Part shown: positions 21,578 to 28,100 of the stretch, in pieces
How positions within the stretch are numbered: position 1 is the stretch's first letter
Layout of the letters: each line of letters starts with the position of its first letter
From: Methanobrevibacter olleyae
GTDB lineage: Archaea; Methanobacteriota; Methanobacteria; Methanobacteriales; Methanobacteriaceae
Length of the DNA stretch: 64,000 nt
Reading direction: 5' to 3'
NCBI GenBank assembly: GCA_015063035.1
Contig: SUTG01000001.1
Coordinates: 62,001 to 126,000 of the forward strand
Made by a program: the position numbers and the translations under genes
Notes under the pieces: generated by a model
What the model was told of the DNA's origin: nothing
Databases searched by the model: none
What the model saw: only the letters and a program-made list of their open reading frames with translations

Positions 21578-22414
21578 TTATTTAAAATTGGAAATGCTTT
21601 CTACAAATTCAGGTGTGTCAATAGAAGCTATTGGAACACCTGTTTCCAATTCCTTGATCTTTTCCATATCCTCATTTGATAATTCAAAGTCAAAAATGTT
21701 GATGTTTTCCTGAACCCTTTCATCTTTGATTGATTTTGGAAATACAATTATTCCCCTTTGTGCAATCCATCTTAAGATTACTTGAGCTGGACTTTTATTG
21801 TATTTTTCAGCTATTTCCTTTAGGATAGGATTTTGGAAGATATTGTCTCTTCCTTCTGCAAGAGGGCCCCATGCCTCTACTTTACATCCATATTTTTCAT
21901 AGAACTCCTCAATTCCATCTTGCTGATAGTAGGGGTTCACTTCAATCTGATTTACCATTGGAGAAATTTCATTATGTTTTGCCAAATTGACAAAACGACT
22001 TTTTGTAAAGTTTGACACTCCTATGGCTTTTACTTTACCTTCCTTATAGAGGTCTTCAAATGCTCTCCAAGTGGCAAACACATCCCCAATGTTTTGATGT
22101 ATGAGGTATAAGTCTATGTAATCAGTTCCAAGCTTTTTTAGGGATTCCTCACAAGCCATTTTAGCTTCTTCATAGCCATGGTCGCTATGCCAGATTTTTG
22201 TTGTAATGAACAGTTCTTCCCTTGGGATTCCACTTTCCTTGATGGCTTCACCAACTTCCTTTTCATTGTAATATGCTTGTGCAGTGTCTATGTGCCTGTA
22301 ACCGTTTTCAAGTGCAGTCAACACTGCATCTTTAGTGTTTTGTGGAGGGACTTGAAATACTCCAAATCCTAATTGAGGCACTTCTATGCCGTTTGATAAA
22401 CTAATGTATTCCAT
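21578..22414 (-). CDS. Aldo/keto reductase
   Basis: A 278-aa NADPH-dependent aldo/keto reductase of the 2,5-diketogluconate reductase-like group. The catalytic tetrad is recognisable: Asp in GYRHIDTAQAYYNE, Tyr in the same stretch, Lys in ITTKIW and His in LYLIHQN. The C-terminal part carries the VFPKSIKDERVQEN cofactor motif. Physiological substrate unknown; such enzymes reduce reactive aldehydes. AAAGGTGAT precedes the ATG at 22414. It sits between another aldo/keto reductase upstream and a flavodoxin downstream. Confidence 0.88.
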   Translation of the reverse strand: MEYISLSNGIEVPQLGFGVFQVPPQNTKDAVLTALENGYRHIDTAQAYYNEKEVGEAIKESGIPREELFITTKIWHSDHGYEEAKMACEESLKKLGTDYIDLYLIHQNIGDVFATWRAFEDLYKEGKVKAIGVSNFTKSRFVNLAKHNEISPMVNQIEVNPYYQQDGIEEFYEKYGCKVEAWGPLAEGRDNIFQNPILKEIAEKYNKSPAQVILRWIAQRGIIVFPKSIKDERVQENINIFDFELSNEDMEKIKELETGVPIASIDTPEFVESISNFK

Positions 22415-22460
22415 TCTATCACCTTTTATGTTTCATAATACTTGATAAATTTATATTTTT

Positions 22461-23570
22461 TTATTCAAAGCAATCAACAACATCCTTCAATAAATCAGGT
22501 ATATTAAGTTTTTGGGTGCAGATTGCCATACAGGATTCACATTCTGTGCATGCGGATGCCGGTGCATTTGCAGCTGCGGTTGTTCCATAGATTGCATGCA
22601 ATGAAGGAAGTGAATACATCTTTTCACTGTTGTACAATTCAAAGAAATCAGGTATAGGTATTCCTGCTGGACATTCCTTTAGGCAATATCCGCAGTAACT
22701 GCAGTCTATTGCAATGAGTTCCTTGATTTCATTTGCCATTGAAAGCACGAATTTGTTTTCCTCTTCGCTCATAGGTTCAAATGGCTTGAACACTTCGCAG
22801 TTCTCTTTCATCTGCTGGAGGTTTCCTACACCACTTAAAACCACTTTGACATTTTCATGGCTTGCTGCAAATCTTAAGGCGGCTTCAACTAAAGTCATTC
22901 CTTTATCTTGGAACTTTTCTTTTATGTTATCTGGAAGGTTGTATAATGTTCCACCTTTTATAGGTTCCATTACAATCACTTCCTTGCCGTATTTTTCACA
23001 GATTTCATAATTCTTTCTTGATTCGGTAAGTTTGCTTTCCCAATCGAGATAGTTCAATTGAAGCTGCACTACATCTATTGCATCGCCGTATTTTTCAAGG
23101 ATCTCCTCAAGCAAGTCCGCCCTATCATGGTAACTGATACCTATTTTCTTGGCTATTCCTTCCTCTTTCATTTTCTTTATGTAATTGAAGCTGTTGCAGT
23201 TTTCAGCTATTTGAAGGAATGATTCATTGATATTGTGGATAAGCAATACATCAAAGAAATCTGTTCCCAATCTTTCAAGCATGATATCTACAAATTTTTG
23301 GTTATCCTCTTCACTTGTTAAAGCCCATGTAGGTATCTTATCTGCTATCTTAAATGATTCTCTTGGATATCTTTCCACAAGTCCAATCTTTAAGGCAGCT
23401 TCTGAAGCGCCATTGTGGTATGCATAGGAGGTGTCAAAGTAGTTGAAACCTTGATCCATATAATAGTCAATCATTTCTGTAACATCATCGTAATTTATGG
23501 AACTTGGATTGTTTTCATCTTCCAAATCCAATCTCATAGCTCCAAATCCAAACATAACATCATCGCTCAT
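22461..23570 (-). CDS. Aldo/keto reductase with C-terminal 4Fe-4S ferredoxin domain
   Basis: An aldo/keto reductase barrel (FDTSYAYHNG near residue 46, LIHNI near 112) is fused to a C-terminal iron-sulfur domain with CSYCGYCLKECPAG and CTECESCMAICTQKL. The fusion implies electrons from ferredoxin-type clusters instead of, or as well as, NADPH. An upstream in-frame GTG at 23579 is part of the AGGTG ribosome binding site, so ATG at 23570 is chosen (369 aa). The gene diverges from a MarR regulator across 200 bases that hold a palindromic site. It probably forms an operon with the next aldo/keto reductase and flavodoxin. Confidence 0.85.
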   Translation of the reverse strand: MSDDVMFGFGAMRLDLEDENNPSSINYDDVTEMIDYYMDQGFNYFDTSYAYHNGASEAALKIGLVERYPRESFKIADKIPTWALTSEEDNQKFVDIMLERLGTDFFDVLLIHNINESFLQIAENCNSFNYIKKMKEEGIAKKIGISYHDRADLLEEILEKYGDAIDVVQLQLNYLDWESKLTESRKNYEICEKYGKEVIVMEPIKGGTLYNLPDNIKEKFQDKGMTLVEAALRFAASHENVKVVLSGVGNLQQMKENCEVFKPFEPMSEEENKFVLSMANEIKELIAIDCSYCGYCLKECPAGIPIPDFFELYNSEKMYSLPSLHAIYGTTAAANAPASACTECESCMAICTQKLNIPDLLKDVVDCFE

Positions 23571-23609
23571 AATTGTCACCTAATTGCATTAAATTAAATT
23601 GAATATAAT

Positions 23610-23632
23610 ATAGTTTATAATATTTAAACTAT
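23610..23632. promoter_or_regulatory. Palindromic operator candidate between divergent AKR and MarR genes
   Basis: ATAGTTTA (23610-23617) and TAAACTAT (23625-23632) form an 8-bp inverted repeat around a 7-base A/T spacer. A second half-site, ATAGTTTATAT, lies near 23720 closer to the MarR start. The location between a MarR gene and a divergent oxidoreductase operon is the classical place for a MarR autoregulatory operator. Confidence 0.5.
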
Positions 23633-23769
23633 TTTTAAAAATATTATATTTGATATAATATATAAATCTTTCTTAAGGAAACAGTTGTCTAATGAAAATA
23701 TTTAAATATATGGAAAAATATAGTTTATATAATGATAATTTTAATATATTGCTTTAAATAGGTGTAAAT

Positions 23770-24225
23770 ATGGAATTGCCTAATCAGTTTATTAATGAAG
23801 AGCCAGAAAACATCCGGATTTATCATTTTGTAGAGGAATTGGTGGGAAGCTTTAGAAATTACATTGATGAGGAATTCGTTGATGATGACATAAGCATGGT
23901 TGAGCTTCCATTCCTGCTTAGAATAAGGTTTTCAACTGAAGGAACCCAAAAGGAATTGGTGAATCTATTCAAGGTCAGTGATGGCTATACCGCTAAGCTT
24001 CTAAGGAGATTTGAAGTGGCTGGTCTTATTAATAGAATAGAAGATCCATCTAATAGACGTAGAAAATTAGTTAAATTAACTGATCAAGGCGTTAAAAGAA
24101 CTGATAAGATATTAAAATACATCGATTACTGGGAAGATACAGTGATGGATGGAATCGATGAGGATGAGAGAAAAGTCTTGAAAAAATCCTTATTGAAGCT
24201 GGTTTTAAACATTGGGAACCTTTGA
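23770..24225 (+). CDS. MarR-family transcriptional regulator
   Basis: A 151-aa winged-helix regulator. The DNA-binding region spans TQKELVNLFKVSDGYTAKLL and RRFEVAGLINRIEDPSNRR, the normal MarR helix-turn-helix and wing. Start at 23770 after AGGTG. It is transcribed away from the aldo/keto reductase operon and is expected to repress that operon and itself through the palindrome at 23610. No Cys is available for thiol-based sensing. It differs clearly from the MarR at 17844. Confidence 0.85.
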   Translation: MELPNQFINEEPENIRIYHFVEELVGSFRNYIDEEFVDDDISMVELPFLLRIRFSTEGTQKELVNLFKVSDGYTAKLLRRFEVAGLINRIEDPSNRRRKLVKLTDQGVKRTDKILKYIDYWEDTVMDGIDEDERKVLKKSLLKLVLNIGNL

Positions 24226-24291: not shown

Positions 24292-24903
24292 TTATGGATG
24301 TATTTTTTCAATGGCTTCAGAAGGACAGTTTTCATAACATAAACCGCAATGCAAGCAATGGTTTTGAGCTATTTCAAATGGAGTTCCCTCTGATATTACT
24401 TGTTGCGGGCATAAGTCCTTGCATATTCCACATTCAATGCATTCTTCACTTATTTTATATCCTTTTTCTTTTGTTTTCCAATCGCCAATACTGAATTTTT
24501 CTCTATAAATTGGCTTTTGAGTCAGATCAAAGACTTCAATTTCCCCTTTTTCTATACAAAATGGCTCTAGGATATAGCGTGCATCACCAGGATAGACATT
24601 ATTCATGTATCTGTTTTCTTCAAACATTTTATCTATCCATTCCTTCTGGTTGTCTAATTTTTTAGCCATTCCAGTAATGCGTATGGATTTATTGTCCTTT
24701 AAGTTCAAATAGCTTACCTGAGGATGAGCAATAATCTCTTTATAGACGTCTTTTCCTCGTGCAGTTAGGAAATACACCGTTTCATCGTCAATAAGCATTA
24801 TGTCTATTATCCTGCTTTGGGGATTTCCATCTTCATCAACAGTGCTTAACACTCCGTCTATCACTTCTCTTACTTGCCTTAAACAATCTTTTTTACTAAT
24901 CAT
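24292..24903 (-). CDS. Pyridoxamine-phosphate-oxidase-like flavin protein fused to 2x[4Fe-4S] ferredoxin
   Basis: A 203-aa protein. The N-terminal split-barrel PNPOx-like domain (about 1-130; DGNPQSRIIDIMLIDDETVYF then TARGKDVYK) normally binds FMN or F420. Two ferredoxin clusters close the protein: CIECGICKDLCPQQ and CLHCGLCYENCPSE. It should be a small flavin/Fe-S oxidoreductase; substrate unknown. Start ATG at 24903. It ends next to the duplicated 3' tail of the MarR gene and is convergent with it. Confidence 0.8.
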   Translation of the reverse strand: MISKKDCLRQVREVIDGVLSTVDEDGNPQSRIIDIMLIDDETVYFLTARGKDVYKEIIAHPQVSYLNLKDNKSIRITGMAKKLDNQKEWIDKMFEENRYMNNVYPGDARYILEPFCIEKGEIEVFDLTQKPIYREKFSIGDWKTKEKGYKISEECIECGICKDLCPQQVISEGTPFEIAQNHCLHCGLCYENCPSEAIEKIHP

Positions 24904-24912
24904 TTTTATCAG

Positions 24913-25036
<124 letters not shown>

Positions 25037-26053
25037 TTAAGGGAGGATTGAATTTTTCTCATCCTCATTTTCCAATTTAAACACTATTTTACCTTTAGCT
25101 TCATTCGATTCCATTAATTTATGTGCATCACTCATATTTTCCAACGAATTAAACACTTTAGAAATTGCTGGCTTAATGTTGTGGTCTATGATGAATTCAA
25201 ACATTTCGTCGATTGTCTTTTGGTTAGGGTAATTGCTATAGAATCCTGTCAGATACCTTCCATTCGGAACCCCTGTTATTGGATCAAATTCTTTAATGTA
25301 ATCCTCTCCGCCAAGCAATCCTGTAACGCAGATTATTCCCCTAAATTTTAAGGCATTCATGGAATCATTCAATGCACTTGCACCAATAAAATCCAATATT
25401 TTTTCTACTCCTTCCGGAAATATTTTTAGAATCTCTGAAGAGATTTCTCCATTGTCAATTATTGCATAATCCACACCAAGATTTTCCAGTCTGCTTATTC
25501 CATCTTCATTTCTGCTTGTTGCAATAATTGTGCATCCAATTGATTTGGCTAATTGAATTGCACTTAGGCCTGCTGCACTAGTTCCCCCTCTAATCAAAAG
25601 AACGTCTTCCTTTTTCAAGTCTAGACATTCAAATAATGAACCGAATGCAGTAAAATAAGTTTCTGGAATAGCTATCAGCTCTTCAAGGCTAAGTTTTTCT
25701 AAAATGTCATCCTTTATCTTGAAAGTGTTTTTTGTTGGAATCAATGTATATTCAGCATAACTTCCATCAAAGGACCTTCCCATTCCGCCCATTAGGCAAC
25801 ATACAATATCCCCTTTTTTAAATGGGCTATTTGATGGGTCTATTATTTCCCCTACACATTCTATTCCTGGGATTCTAGGAAGCTTAATATAAGGTTCATC
25901 AGCTTCATAATCTCTTAAGATCACTTCAGAGCGATTGATGCCAAAACCATTTACCTTAACAATCACTTTGTCTTCTTCAATTTTGGGCATCGGAACATCT
26001 GTCACTTTCAGATCTTCTGCCTTACAGGTCTTTTCAAGAACTATTGCTTTCAT
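25037..26053 (-). CDS. Zinc-type / quinone-oxidoreductase-like MDR dehydrogenase
   Basis: A medium-chain dehydrogenase/reductase of 338 aa. The GroES-like N-terminal domain has the PRIPGIECVGEI motif, and the Rossmann domain has LIRGGTSAAGLSAIQLAKSIG. The usual structural-zinc Cys cluster is absent, so it is nearer the quinone oxidoreductase branch. GTG at 26062 belongs to the AGGTG ribosome binding site; ATG at 26053 is the start. It follows the radical SAM gene by 16 bases on the same strand and is probably co-transcribed with the peptide and maturase genes, so it could be a tailoring enzyme or an unrelated passenger. Confidence 0.82.
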   Translation of the reverse strand: MKAIVLEKTCKAEDLKVTDVPMPKIEEDKVIVKVNGFGINRSEVILRDYEADEPYIKLPRIPGIECVGEIIDPSNSPFKKGDIVCCLMGGMGRSFDGSYAEYTLIPTKNTFKIKDDILEKLSLEELIAIPETYFTAFGSLFECLDLKKEDVLLIRGGTSAAGLSAIQLAKSIGCTIIATSRNEDGISRLENLGVDYAIIDNGEISSEILKIFPEGVEKILDFIGASALNDSMNALKFRGIICVTGLLGGEDYIKEFDPITGVPNGRYLTGFYSNYPNQKTIDEMFEFIIDHNIKPAISKVFNSLENMSDAHKLMESNEAKGKIVFKLENEDEKNSILP

Positions 26054-26069
26054 TTTATTCACCTTTTAA

Positions 26070-27095
26070 TTAAAGTTCCTTCCAGCATTGTGGATCGGGG
26101 GAATAAGGATTATGAGTGTAGCCATAGCTTACGGATGGGCAGCCTCTGCAGAATCTTAACAATTCACATTTTGAACATTTCTCAAACTTATCATATTGCC
26201 TGTAGTAATTCATTCTTTTTCCAGTGAAAATATCATAAATGCTCTCAGATAATGCATTTCCAACTTTACTTTCCATTCTACGGCAAGCATAAACATCTCC
26301 ATTAGGCAAAATTGTTAAATGCCCTATCCCACAATTGCATCCATCATAGATGACATTTTCATCAAGATTCTTTGGAATTTTAAAGAGGCCCTCTTCATAT
26401 AGGTAAAGTGTCCATAAGTGGTCTTTTAAACTAAACTTGGTTTCGCTATTATCGTATTTTTCATATAGCTTAAAGCAGTTATCCAATAATTCCCTATATT
26501 CATTTGCTGTCATCTGCGCACTTTTTTCCAAGCTTGTAGGGCAATATCTGGCAAATGTAAATAGGTCGGCCTTATATTCTACAGCCTTTTCTATTATTCC
26601 AGGAATTTCATCGATATTTGTCTTTGAGACGGTTGTCATGATGTTTGCATGGATTCCTGCATTTTTCAATGGGGCTATTTTTTCAAGGGTTGTATAAAAT
26701 GATCCTTCTTTTCTAAAGTAATCATGAGTTTCCTTAAGTCCATCCAGTGACAATTGATAAAATCTGCAGCCGTATGATGCCAAATCCTGACAAACATCTT
26801 CATTTAGGTGAAATGGGTTGCCTAGTATTCCAAAAGGAGTTTTATTTTCCTTTAAGAATTCAAGAATTTTCCAAAAGTCTGGGTGCAATATAGGGTCTCC
26901 CCCAGTTATTGTAAAAAAAGCCTTTCTATTAGATTTTTCACACATATCATAACAATTATGGAATACTTTCATTACCTTTTCATAGCTCATTGTTATGATT
27001 GGTTTATTGTTTTCTTCTGAAAAAATGTAGCAATGCTTGCATCTTTGGTCACAGTCATCAGTTATATGAAATTGAAAAGGGAAAAATTCTGTCAT
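26070..27095 (-). CDS. Radical SAM/SPASM peptide maturase (ACGX-type system)
   Basis: A radical SAM enzyme with CDQRCKHCY (CX3CX2C) right after FQFHITDD and a GGDP motif. The C-terminal SPASM region has CNCGIGHLTILPNGDVYACRR and KCSKCELLRFCRGC, ligands for auxiliary [4Fe-4S] clusters. Such enzymes install thioether or C-C crosslinks in ribosomal peptides. The neighbouring gene encodes a Cys-repeat peptide, matching the family pairing that TIGRFAM/NCBIfam names the ACGX system (from memory). The frame also has an ATG at 27134, but that lies in the loop of a hairpin without a ribosome binding site. ATG at 27095 (341 aa) gives the family-like N-terminus MTEFFPFQFHIT. Confidence 0.85.
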   Translation of the reverse strand: MTEFFPFQFHITDDCDQRCKHCYIFSEENNKPIITMSYEKVMKVFHNCYDMCEKSNRKAFFTITGGDPILHPDFWKILEFLKENKTPFGILGNPFHLNEDVCQDLASYGCRFYQLSLDGLKETHDYFRKEGSFYTTLEKIAPLKNAGIHANIMTTVSKTNIDEIPGIIEKAVEYKADLFTFARYCPTSLEKSAQMTANEYRELLDNCFKLYEKYDNSETKFSLKDHLWTLYLYEEGLFKIPKNLDENVIYDGCNCGIGHLTILPNGDVYACRRMESKVGNALSESIYDIFTGKRMNYYRQYDKFEKCSKCELLRFCRGCPSVSYGYTHNPYSPDPQCWKEL

Positions 27096-27119
27096 TTTTA
27101 GTCCACAAAAAAATAAGAG

Positions 27120-27145
27120 ATTCCTTAATTTCATAATTAAGGAAT
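27120..27145 (-). terminator. Hairpin with T-tract between precursor peptide and maturase
   Basis: ATTCCTTAATT (27120-27130) and AATTAAGGAAT (27135-27145) form an 11-bp perfect inverted repeat with a 4-base loop. Read on the minus strand it is followed by CTCTTATTTTTTT. It sits just after the precursor stop codon and overlaps the first possible start codon of the maturase, so it would act as a partial terminator or attenuator. Confidence 0.6.
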
Positions 27146-27155
27146 GGTTTTTAAT

Positions 27156-27494
27156 CTAGTTTAAATCAGTTCCACAAGCGGTAAATACTTCTTCTCCACA
27201 TGCAGTGTTTATTCCTTCTCCGCATGCTGTTGTGAGTCTTTCTTCTCCACATGCAGTGTTTATTCCTTCTCCGCATGCTGTTGTGAGTCTTTCTTCTCCG
27301 CATGCAGTGTTTATTCCTTCTCCGCATGCTGTTGTGAGTCTTTCTTCTCCGCATGCAGTGTTTATTCCTTCCCCACAAGCGGTATTTAATTCTTCTCCGC
27401 ATGCTGTGGAAATAGAGCTTTTACCAAAGTAATTTCCTGCAATTTTGGATTTGTAATACTTGTCTTCTTTTGTCCATTCATTTAATTTATACAT
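27156..27494 (-). CDS. ACG-repeat RiPP precursor peptide
   Basis: A 112-aa peptide. The charged leader MYKLNEWTKEDKYYKSKIAG runs into NYFGKSSIS; ten TACGE-type units follow, each separated by two or three residues (LN, IN, RLT, VF), with Cys always in Ala-Cys-Gly. The regular Cys spacing alternates 8 and 9 residues. At DNA level a 51-nt unit (17 aa) is repeated almost identically. There is no signal peptide and no transporter gene adjacent. GTG at 27503 is part of AGGTGAT; ATG at 27494 is the start. The maturase gene follows. The peptide resembles precursors described as ACGX-repeat peptides; the product is unknown. Confidence 0.82.
   Translation of the reverse strand: MYKLNEWTKEDKYYKSKIAGNYFGKSSISTACGEELNTACGEGINTACGEERLTTACGEGINTACGEERLTTACGEGINTACGEERLTTACGEGINTACGEEVFTACGTDLN
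27203..27390 (-). repeat. 51-nt coding repeat in the precursor gene
   Basis: Identical or nearly identical 51-nt units begin at 27203, 27254 and 27305, with a diverged fourth at 27356; each codes for 17 aa with two ACG motifs. The near identity points to recent unequal crossing-over or gene conversion. Confidence 0.9.
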
Positions 27495-27645: not shown

Positions 27646-27663
27646 AGTTACCATTTGGTTACT
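27646..27663. promoter_or_regulatory. Operator-like palindrome upstream of the HxlR gene
   Basis: AGTTACCA-TT-TGGTTACT is a palindrome with one mismatched pair in eight. It lies 54 bases before the HxlR start, in the gap shared with the divergent precursor gene, and is followed by ATATG. It is a good candidate for HxlR binding. Confidence 0.5.
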
Positions 27664-27716: not shown

Positions 27717-28100
27717 ATGACTGAAGAAAAAGCAAGAAAATGTCCAGTTGAATTGGCAATGGGCATGATCAATAAAAAATGGGTTATCCAGTTATTGAGA
27801 GACATGTTTTTTGGTGTGTCCCGCTTTAATGAATTTAAGGAAGGAAAACCTAACTTATCCAATAAAGTTTTATCAAATTGTCTTAAGGAAATGGAATTGA
27901 ATGGGCTTATTCAAAGGATTGTGGATTGTGAGGACTCTTCAAATATAGAATATAAATTAACTGAAAAAGGATTAGCCTTAAATAAAGTGATTTATGAACT
28001 TGCAATGTTTTCCTTGACTACAGATATTGACAATAAGTATTACTCTGAAGAGGATAAAATGGAAATTTCAGAAATTTTTGAAAAACAGCTATTTGATTAA
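27717..28100 (+). CDS. HxlR-family transcriptional regulator
   Basis: A 127-aa winged-helix protein. The family start CPVELAMGMINKKWVIQLLRD is followed by FNEFKEGKPNLSNKVLSN and the KEMELNGLIQRIV wing. HxlR proteins commonly sense thiols or aldehydes through the N-terminal Cys; here a Cys is present at residue 10. ATG at 27717. It diverges from the peptide-maturase genes across a 222-base gap with a palindrome, so it is the likely local regulator. Confidence 0.85.
   Translation: MTEEKARKCPVELAMGMINKKWVIQLLRDMFFGVSRFNEFKEGKPNLSNKVLSNCLKEMELNGLIQRIVDCEDSSNIEYKLTEKGLALNKVIYELAMFSLTTDIDNKYYSEEDKMEISEIFEKQLFD

Follow-up and report, generated by a model that had tools for sequence, protein, structure and literature searches.

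A predicted thiol-stress regulon joining an ACGX-type ribosomal peptide cassette to SirTM/Zn-Macro genes in methanogens

The ACGX pairing of a radical SAM maturase (TIGR04340) with a repeat-bearing precursor (TIGR04341) is known only as NCBIfam family names; our literature search found no paper on the ACGX system, TIGR04340 or TIGR04341, and no published function. The nearest characterised maturase, SbtM, removes four hydrogens at cysteine to yield a thiooxazole (PMC11002830), and for one thiooxazole repeat peptide it has been proposed that the polypeptide stays whole (PMC12538549). A second group of systems is built on the class-M sirtuin SirTM and the zinc-macrodomain protein Zn-Macro, its eraser, a structurally well-studied ADP-ribosylation pair that in streptococci and staphylococci belongs to an extended operon with GcvH-L, LplA2 and OYE/LLM oxidoreductases (PMC4518038, PMC11490716). 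Zn-Macros strip Asp/Glu of ADP-ribose and have been described as the sole enzymes known to hydrolyse ADP-ribosyl-Cys, whilst the targets of stand-alone pairs, outside the GcvH-L operon, have been stated to be unknown, and the crystallised Zn-Macro of Methanobrevibacter oralis does not demodify GcvH-L (PMC11490716).

Here we describe an ACGX locus within 64,000 nucleotides of Methanobrevibacter olleyae (assembly GCA_015063035.1, contig SUTG01000001.1, positions 62,001 to 126,000), hereafter the window. We read the locus, with a probability of about 0.6, as a ribosomal peptide system of the ACGX type that operates in an intracellular response to stress. For comparison, 110 loci were collected, representing 96 distinct maturases (31 archaeal and 65 bacterial). 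Denominators vary with the flank available: 23 archaeal and 58 bacterial loci for upstream tests, 30 and 54 for downstream tests, and 43 for the long bacterial flank.

Precursor and maturase

The precursor gene (27156-27494, minus strand), recognised from its open reading frame, repeats and relatives, encodes 112 residues from the ATG (MYKLNEW...), comprising a 29-residue leader (MYKLNEWTKEDKYYKSKIAGNYFGKSSIS, MYKLNEW...SSIS) and a core of ten TACG units, nine of them TACGE and the last TACGT. At the DNA level, four near-identical 51-nt copies could be aligned across 27189-27392 (minus strand), and Tandem Repeats Finder returned 3.6 copies of 51 nt with 99% matches (score 352); each 51-nt period holds a pair of units (24 + 27 nt), with a spacing that mostly alternates between 8 and 9 residues. 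Repeat number was 10, 9, 6 and 2 in the window's genome and three near relatives, and 2 to 12 overall. Several metagenome contigs start within the array (e.g. L006, L008, L011 and L094), and counts from such assemblies may therefore be too low.

Where the upstream sequence was long enough, 76 of 81 independent loci had an ACG-repeat precursor within 400 nt upstream of the radical SAM gene (21/23 archaeal and 55/58 bacterial testable loci, counting precursors with two or more ACG motifs), so that the precursor-maturase pairing is not due to chance. Bacterial ACGX precursors matched the target_ACGX model TIGR04341 with up to 99 bits. By its defining criterion, a small protein with multiple ACG motifs encoded next to a TIGR04340 gene, the window precursor belongs with them, having ten units; the model itself (cut-off 28 bits) gave no match to the full window precursor at E<=1, or to a shortened version of it or another archaeal precursor at E<=10. 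Since the archaeal precursors tested fail the model that bacterial ones match, we regard the window precursor as a distinct, unmodelled archaeal type, marked by TACG-[ES][DE] units, an MYKLNxW leader and the 8/9-residue spacing. Of 185 archaeal cysteines, 183 stand in Cys-Gly, and an Asp or Glu lies within three residues of the ACG unit in 177 of 180 archaeal units and in about half of bacterial ones (159/324).

The radical SAM/SPASM maturase gene (26070-27097, minus strand) is open back to 27134, and relatives indicate the start at 27097 (MTEFFPFQF), 58 nt past the precursor stop. With 545.6 bits over residues 17-353 against a curated cut-off of 400, the product is by profile score a full member of TIGR04340 (rSAM_ACGX); the next-best family, SbtM (TIGR04082), scored 185 bits, under its cut-off of 350. 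The radical SAM CxxxCxxC and SPASM cysteines are intact, and among the 96 maturases the CxxxCxxC and seven C-terminal cysteines were invariant, with one further cysteine present in 93. Solved relatives (SkfB, CteB-like and SuiB-like entries) align from their residues 100-135 to maturase residues 7-12, and their extra N-terminal part is thus absent here. On the maturase tree, the 31 archaeal sequences occupy one side of a branch. TIGR04340 maturases were also seen in Methanobrevibacter-type genomes without a nearby ACG precursor and with flavodoxin/FMN-reductase-like neighbours (L014, L109 and L033, of which the first two appear to be one locus). A role in anti-phage defence was rejected, as the only PADLOC matches were viperin hits to the maturase, through its generic radical SAM core, and the precursor had no match.

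Between precursor and maturase, an 11-bp hairpin followed by a U-rich stretch (27120-27145, minus strand) is a possible attenuator, with weak statistics; for the same reason it was not accepted as a terminator. A sigma-70 promoter scan, using a model unsuited to archaea, gave hits at chance level.

These results bear out much of the original prediction, made from the sequence alone, which described a 112-residue precursor with ten repeat units on a near-identical 51-nt DNA repeat, adjacent to a radical SAM/SPASM enzyme in a RiPP-type cassette, suggested that repeat number may vary among strains and named an 'ACGX system' pairing. A frameshifted repeat gene, named there as a sign against the cassette, occurs in a single genome (L104, G070), perhaps through decay or assembly error within the repeats, and does not generalise.

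Redox partners and the divergent regulator

Starting 16 nt past the maturase stop is a gene for an MDR reductase, a PIG3-like quinone oxidoreductase (25037-26053, minus strand; profile match), which adjoins the maturase in 27 of 30 archaeal loci. The corresponding bacterial slot is filled by an MDR gene (18/54) or a nitroreductase gene (32/54), never both (hypergeometric P = 7.5e-11), with at least 8-11 exchanges between the two on the radical SAM tree; on these grounds we consider the reductase a fixed part of the ACGX system. A PNPOx/PPOX-type flavoprotein with two C-terminal 4Fe-4S motifs (PPOX-ferredoxin; 24292-24903, minus strand; profile match and motifs) starts 133 nt past the MDR stop, and its counterparts lie downstream in 25/30 archaeal and 28/54 bacterial loci. 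Judged by this conserved gene order, both the MDR reductase and the PPOX/4Fe-4S flavoprotein belong to the ACGX system. The gap between their genes contains a 30-base, nearly pure T run (24951-24980), a likely slippage site. The block is adjoined at 21578-24225 by a divergent MarR-family regulator and a pair of aldo/keto reductase genes, of which one encodes Fe-S motifs at the C-terminus; on a Thomasclavelia contig (L031), an Fe-S aldo/keto reductase of similar type is encoded 0.4 kb upstream of the ACGX maturase.

The divergent HxlR regulator (27717-28100, plus strand), assigned by its domain and by alignment, has counterparts upstream of the cassette in 19/23 archaeal loci, and an HxlR-type gene is found in 40/58 bacterial loci. 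Its closest solved relatives are HypR and YodB, and its Cys9 aligns with YodB Cys6 and with Cys14, the sensing residue of HypR. YodB Cys6 is alkylated by quinones (PMC8063818), and Cys11 of the Bacillus subtilis HxlR, at the equivalent position, reacts with formaldehyde (PMC7835342). Because Cys9 matches both, the expected signal for the window's regulator would be an electrophile or an oxidant. Across the loci compared, precursor, TIGR04340 maturase, MDR reductase and PPOX-ferredoxin thus form a conserved block that faces an HxlR gene with the predicted HypR/YodB-type sensor cysteine. Several Methanobrevibacter genomes have further HxlR paralogs downstream of the ACGX block (L010, L013, L015 and L016), and in two of these (L015 and L016) one of them is preceded by an exact copy of the operator described below.

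Across about 100 archaeal and bacterial loci, no exporter, protease or immunity gene recurred among the neighbours of the cassettes, and an MNIO (DUF692) enzyme was likewise not a recurrent neighbour of the maturase. The absence of an adjacent exporter and protease had been remarked upon in the original prediction and holds, but the family as a whole conserves this feature, and nothing is missing from the locus. The divergent HxlR gene and the MDR gene 16 bases past the maturase were both correctly placed there, and the suspicion that the MDR gene is part of the system agrees with its co-occurrence across loci. All genes then described are present, but the system is larger, gaining the PPOX-ferredoxin and, via a common operator, an unlinked Zn-Macro/SirTM pair.

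A predicted operator and the SirTM/Zn-Macro link

Motif comparison identified a predicted palindromic operator, AGTTACCATTTGGTTACT, at 27646-27663 (no strand assigned), with the pattern RGTWACYNNNNRGTWACY, and the palindrome was present in the gap between HxlR and precursor genes in all 20 archaeal ACGX loci examined. Since these gaps were the source of the pattern, it counts as independent evidence only where it occurs outside them. When up to one mismatch was allowed, the palindrome was found upstream of Zn-Macro in 29 of 38 methanogen regions, against 0.35 expected, in most cases at about 95 nt from the start, and 26 of the 38 regions also contained an HxlR paralog. In the window's genome, an exact site falls 1.8 kb before Zn-Macro, in the gap that separates a PPOX gene from an HxlR paralog, and the site directly before Zn-Macro has two mismatches. 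To see whether the palindrome merely accompanies HxlR genes in general, those of six genomes were inspected (the wrong open reading frame was taken for L210 and the last entries were left out): ACGX-linked and Zn-Macro/PPOX-linked copies had the site, and none of about a dozen other HxlR paralogs was preceded by an exact palindrome, with one-mismatch sites at two. Exact palindromes across whole genomes did not exceed a reversed-pattern control (5 versus 3 in the window's genome, G000; 2 versus 4 in G005), so that the operator argument rests on position rather than count. The predicted operator ahead of the ACGX block therefore also stands ahead of the Zn-macrodomain/SirTM pair across methanogens, and membership of both in a common regulon is a well-supported prediction. 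Two overlapping exact palindromes also occur just before a gene for a 167-aa hypothetical protein in the window's genome (L189, G000:C27:9671-9699), a possible further regulon member.

In bacteria, the association is one of gene order, the ACGX operon of gut species running on into the Zn-Macro and SirTM genes. Of 43 loci with at least 3.9 kb of downstream sequence, 27 contained a SirTM-type sirtuin and 17 a macrodomain (Zn-Macro), on the same strand, with 16 lacking a nearby SirTM. The sirtuin profile matched the SirTM structure 5a3a at 2e-86, as well as the fused fungal protein 8rsn; the zinc-loop pattern is present in the macrodomain, which matches Pfam Macro. A search of the ACGX loci by motif, by length and by eye revealed neither a GcvH-like motif nor an LplA-like gene. 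For a second sample, 200 genomes were drawn evenly from a single bacterial family around the centre genome G166, a Lachnospiraceae MAG that is included in the counts and was chosen for having both systems. Of these genomes, 25 encoded TIGR04340 and 91 SirTM. SirTM occurred in 22 of the 25 genomes with TIGR04340 and in 69 of the other 175 (P = 5e-6, relatedness ignored), and it lay within 5 kb of 15 of 26 TIGR04340 loci, the pairings being counted by eye from coordinates.

SirTM and Zn-Macro were not adjacent to ACGX in any of nine archaeal loci with long flanks. The window's genome carries them on another contig (L123, C78:34974-36669), where the Zn-Macro matches 8rsi, the M. oralis enzyme, at 2e-88 and the SirTM (5a3a, E=3e-50) reads TQGTYAKLQC, with QG replacing the catalytic His. 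A second, diverged sirtuin paralog directly follows SirTM there (L123:5982-6908), as it does in G011 (L125). A second Zn-Macro/SirTM pair in the same genome (L124, G000:C61:6851-8402) has the same contig coordinates as one in another genus (G155:C3) and nearly equal scores, suggesting cross-contamination of one assembly. Genome-wide co-occurrence of ACGX and SirTM in methanogens is confounded by ancestry; SirTM was detected in 45 of 119 TIGR04340-negative genomes, and since many methanogens have SirTM without ACGX, the ACGX peptide cannot be the only SirTM target.

Interpretation and comparison with known systems

The best reading of the locus is a redox- or electrophile-responsive intracellular peptide with predicted cysteine-centred radical SAM modifications, not an exported antibiotic. 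Electrophiles or oxidants would modify the HxlR cysteine and thereby change transcription at the ACGX and Zn-Macro/SirTM operons, and the maturase would modify the cysteine of each Cys-Gly unit, most likely to an SbtM-like oxidative ring and less likely to a thioether. The original prediction had favoured thioethers and a loss of 2 Da for each, which is not the best-supported chemistry; ring formation is rated higher because SbtM, the nearest characterised relative, makes a thiooxazole. The modified polypeptide, probably whole in the cell given the lack of any recurrent exporter or protease, could buffer redox state, electrophiles or metals at its many sulfur sites, with the reductase and the flavoprotein as supporting enzymes.

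ADP-ribosylation probably controls the ACGX system, with SirTM and Zn-Macro probably joining the same response through reversible modification, possibly of the peptide itself, by analogy with lipoyl-GcvH-L in streptococci and staphylococci. The archaeal unit, as read from its sequence, would supply both kinds of acceptor, Cys and Asp/Glu. We offer as a tentative proposal, more doubtful than the stress response itself, that the radical SAM-modified ACGX peptide is a missing substrate of stand-alone SirTM/Zn-Macro pairs, its modified Cys and, in archaea, neighbouring Asp/Glu being reversibly ADP-ribosylated; it would then be a ribosomal, multi-copy counterpart of lipoyl-GcvH-L in gut bacteria and methanogens.

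Other explanations fit parts of this evidence. A thiooxazole-type metal (copper) buffer, in which the Cys-Gly units become metal ligands for cytoplasmic sequestration and the redox genes and SirTM/Zn-Macro are merely co-regulated neighbours, would accord with SbtM as nearest characterised maturase and with bufferin, bulbicupramide and EGKCG peptides, which are tandem Cys-Gly, copper-binding and in several cases without a protease (PMC12538549, PMC12668002). We nevertheless judge it unlikely, as the regulator is of the HypR/YodB thiol-sensor rather than the metal-sensor type, and the cassettes have no recurrent neighbour that is a metal transporter, DoxX or a chaperone. An exported RiPP appears improbable, whether an antimicrobial or a signal of sactipeptide- or ranthipeptide-like type, with proteases and transporters encoded elsewhere in the genome: the lack of any recurrent export, protease or immunity gene in about 100 loci and the constant company of redox enzymes and HxlR oppose it, despite the usual RiPP design of a radical SAM/SPASM enzyme with a leader-core precursor and the presence of the sactisynthase SkfB among the solved relatives of the maturase. 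The fixed yet interchangeable MDR and nitroreductase partners could also point to repeats that serve as scaffolds for a small electron carrier of these enzymes, comparable to PQQ or mycofactocin; with no protease, an ordinary PIG3-like MDR protein and a repeat number free to range from 2 to 12, unusual for a cofactor precursor, such a peptide-derived cofactor seems quite improbable. An unmodified sacrificial peptide, whose plain cysteines scavenge electrophiles whilst the maturase acts elsewhere, would suit Cys-rich, acidic repeats beside thiol-sensor regulators but is very improbable given the tight linkage of precursor and maturase (76/81) and the near-universal placement of archaeal cysteines in Cys-Gly (183/185), as expected of an enzyme motif.

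The intracellular stress response read here departs from described systems in its wider context: we found no account in the literature of the thiol-sensor-type HxlR, the exchangeable reductase, the PPOX-ferredoxin and the SirTM/Zn-Macro pair, joined by operon or operator, and consider this context new. The locus resembles the NCBIfam ACGX system in its maturase, which is over the cut-off, and in the adjoining multi-ACG precursor, and differs from it in an archaeal precursor type outside TIGR04341. SbtM/SbtA (TIGR04082) is similar in that it is the second-best maturase family and SbtM acts on Cys/Sec in a peptide; the window maturase nevertheless falls below its cut-off, and the SbtM model has about 195 extra N-terminal positions. 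Bufferins, bulbicupramide and fontiphorin share tandem Cys-Gly units, and the bulbicupramide cluster has no dedicated protease, so that its polypeptide may stay whole, but these are MNIO-made thiooxazole peptides with different regulators and neighbours. HypR and YodB, DUF24/HxlR-family thiol sensors, have the sensing Cys aligned with that of the window HxlR, but they are Bacillus proteins with other targets, and sensing by the window HxlR is predicted from alignment.

The extended SirTM operon offers a parallel to the wider context, as it likewise combines SirTM and Zn-Macro with oxidoreductases and a small sulfur-bearing carrier in a redox setting. It differs in that ACGX loci, by motif and by eye, are without GcvH-L/LplA, the candidate carrier being a repeat peptide with its own radical SAM maturase, and in that the ACGX and SirTM/Zn-Macro halves are unlinked in methanogens. 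A common operon in bacteria and a common operator in methanogens nonetheless join the ACGX family and the stand-alone SirTM/Zn-Macro pairs, each of which gains a concrete candidate partner, and the regulon gives the so far unstudied ACGX peptides a testable function. If the reading is true, a radical SAM RiPP would serve gut and rumen microbes as an internal redox device and, beside the lipoyl-GcvH-L of streptococci and staphylococci, represent a new class of ADP-ribosylation substrate.
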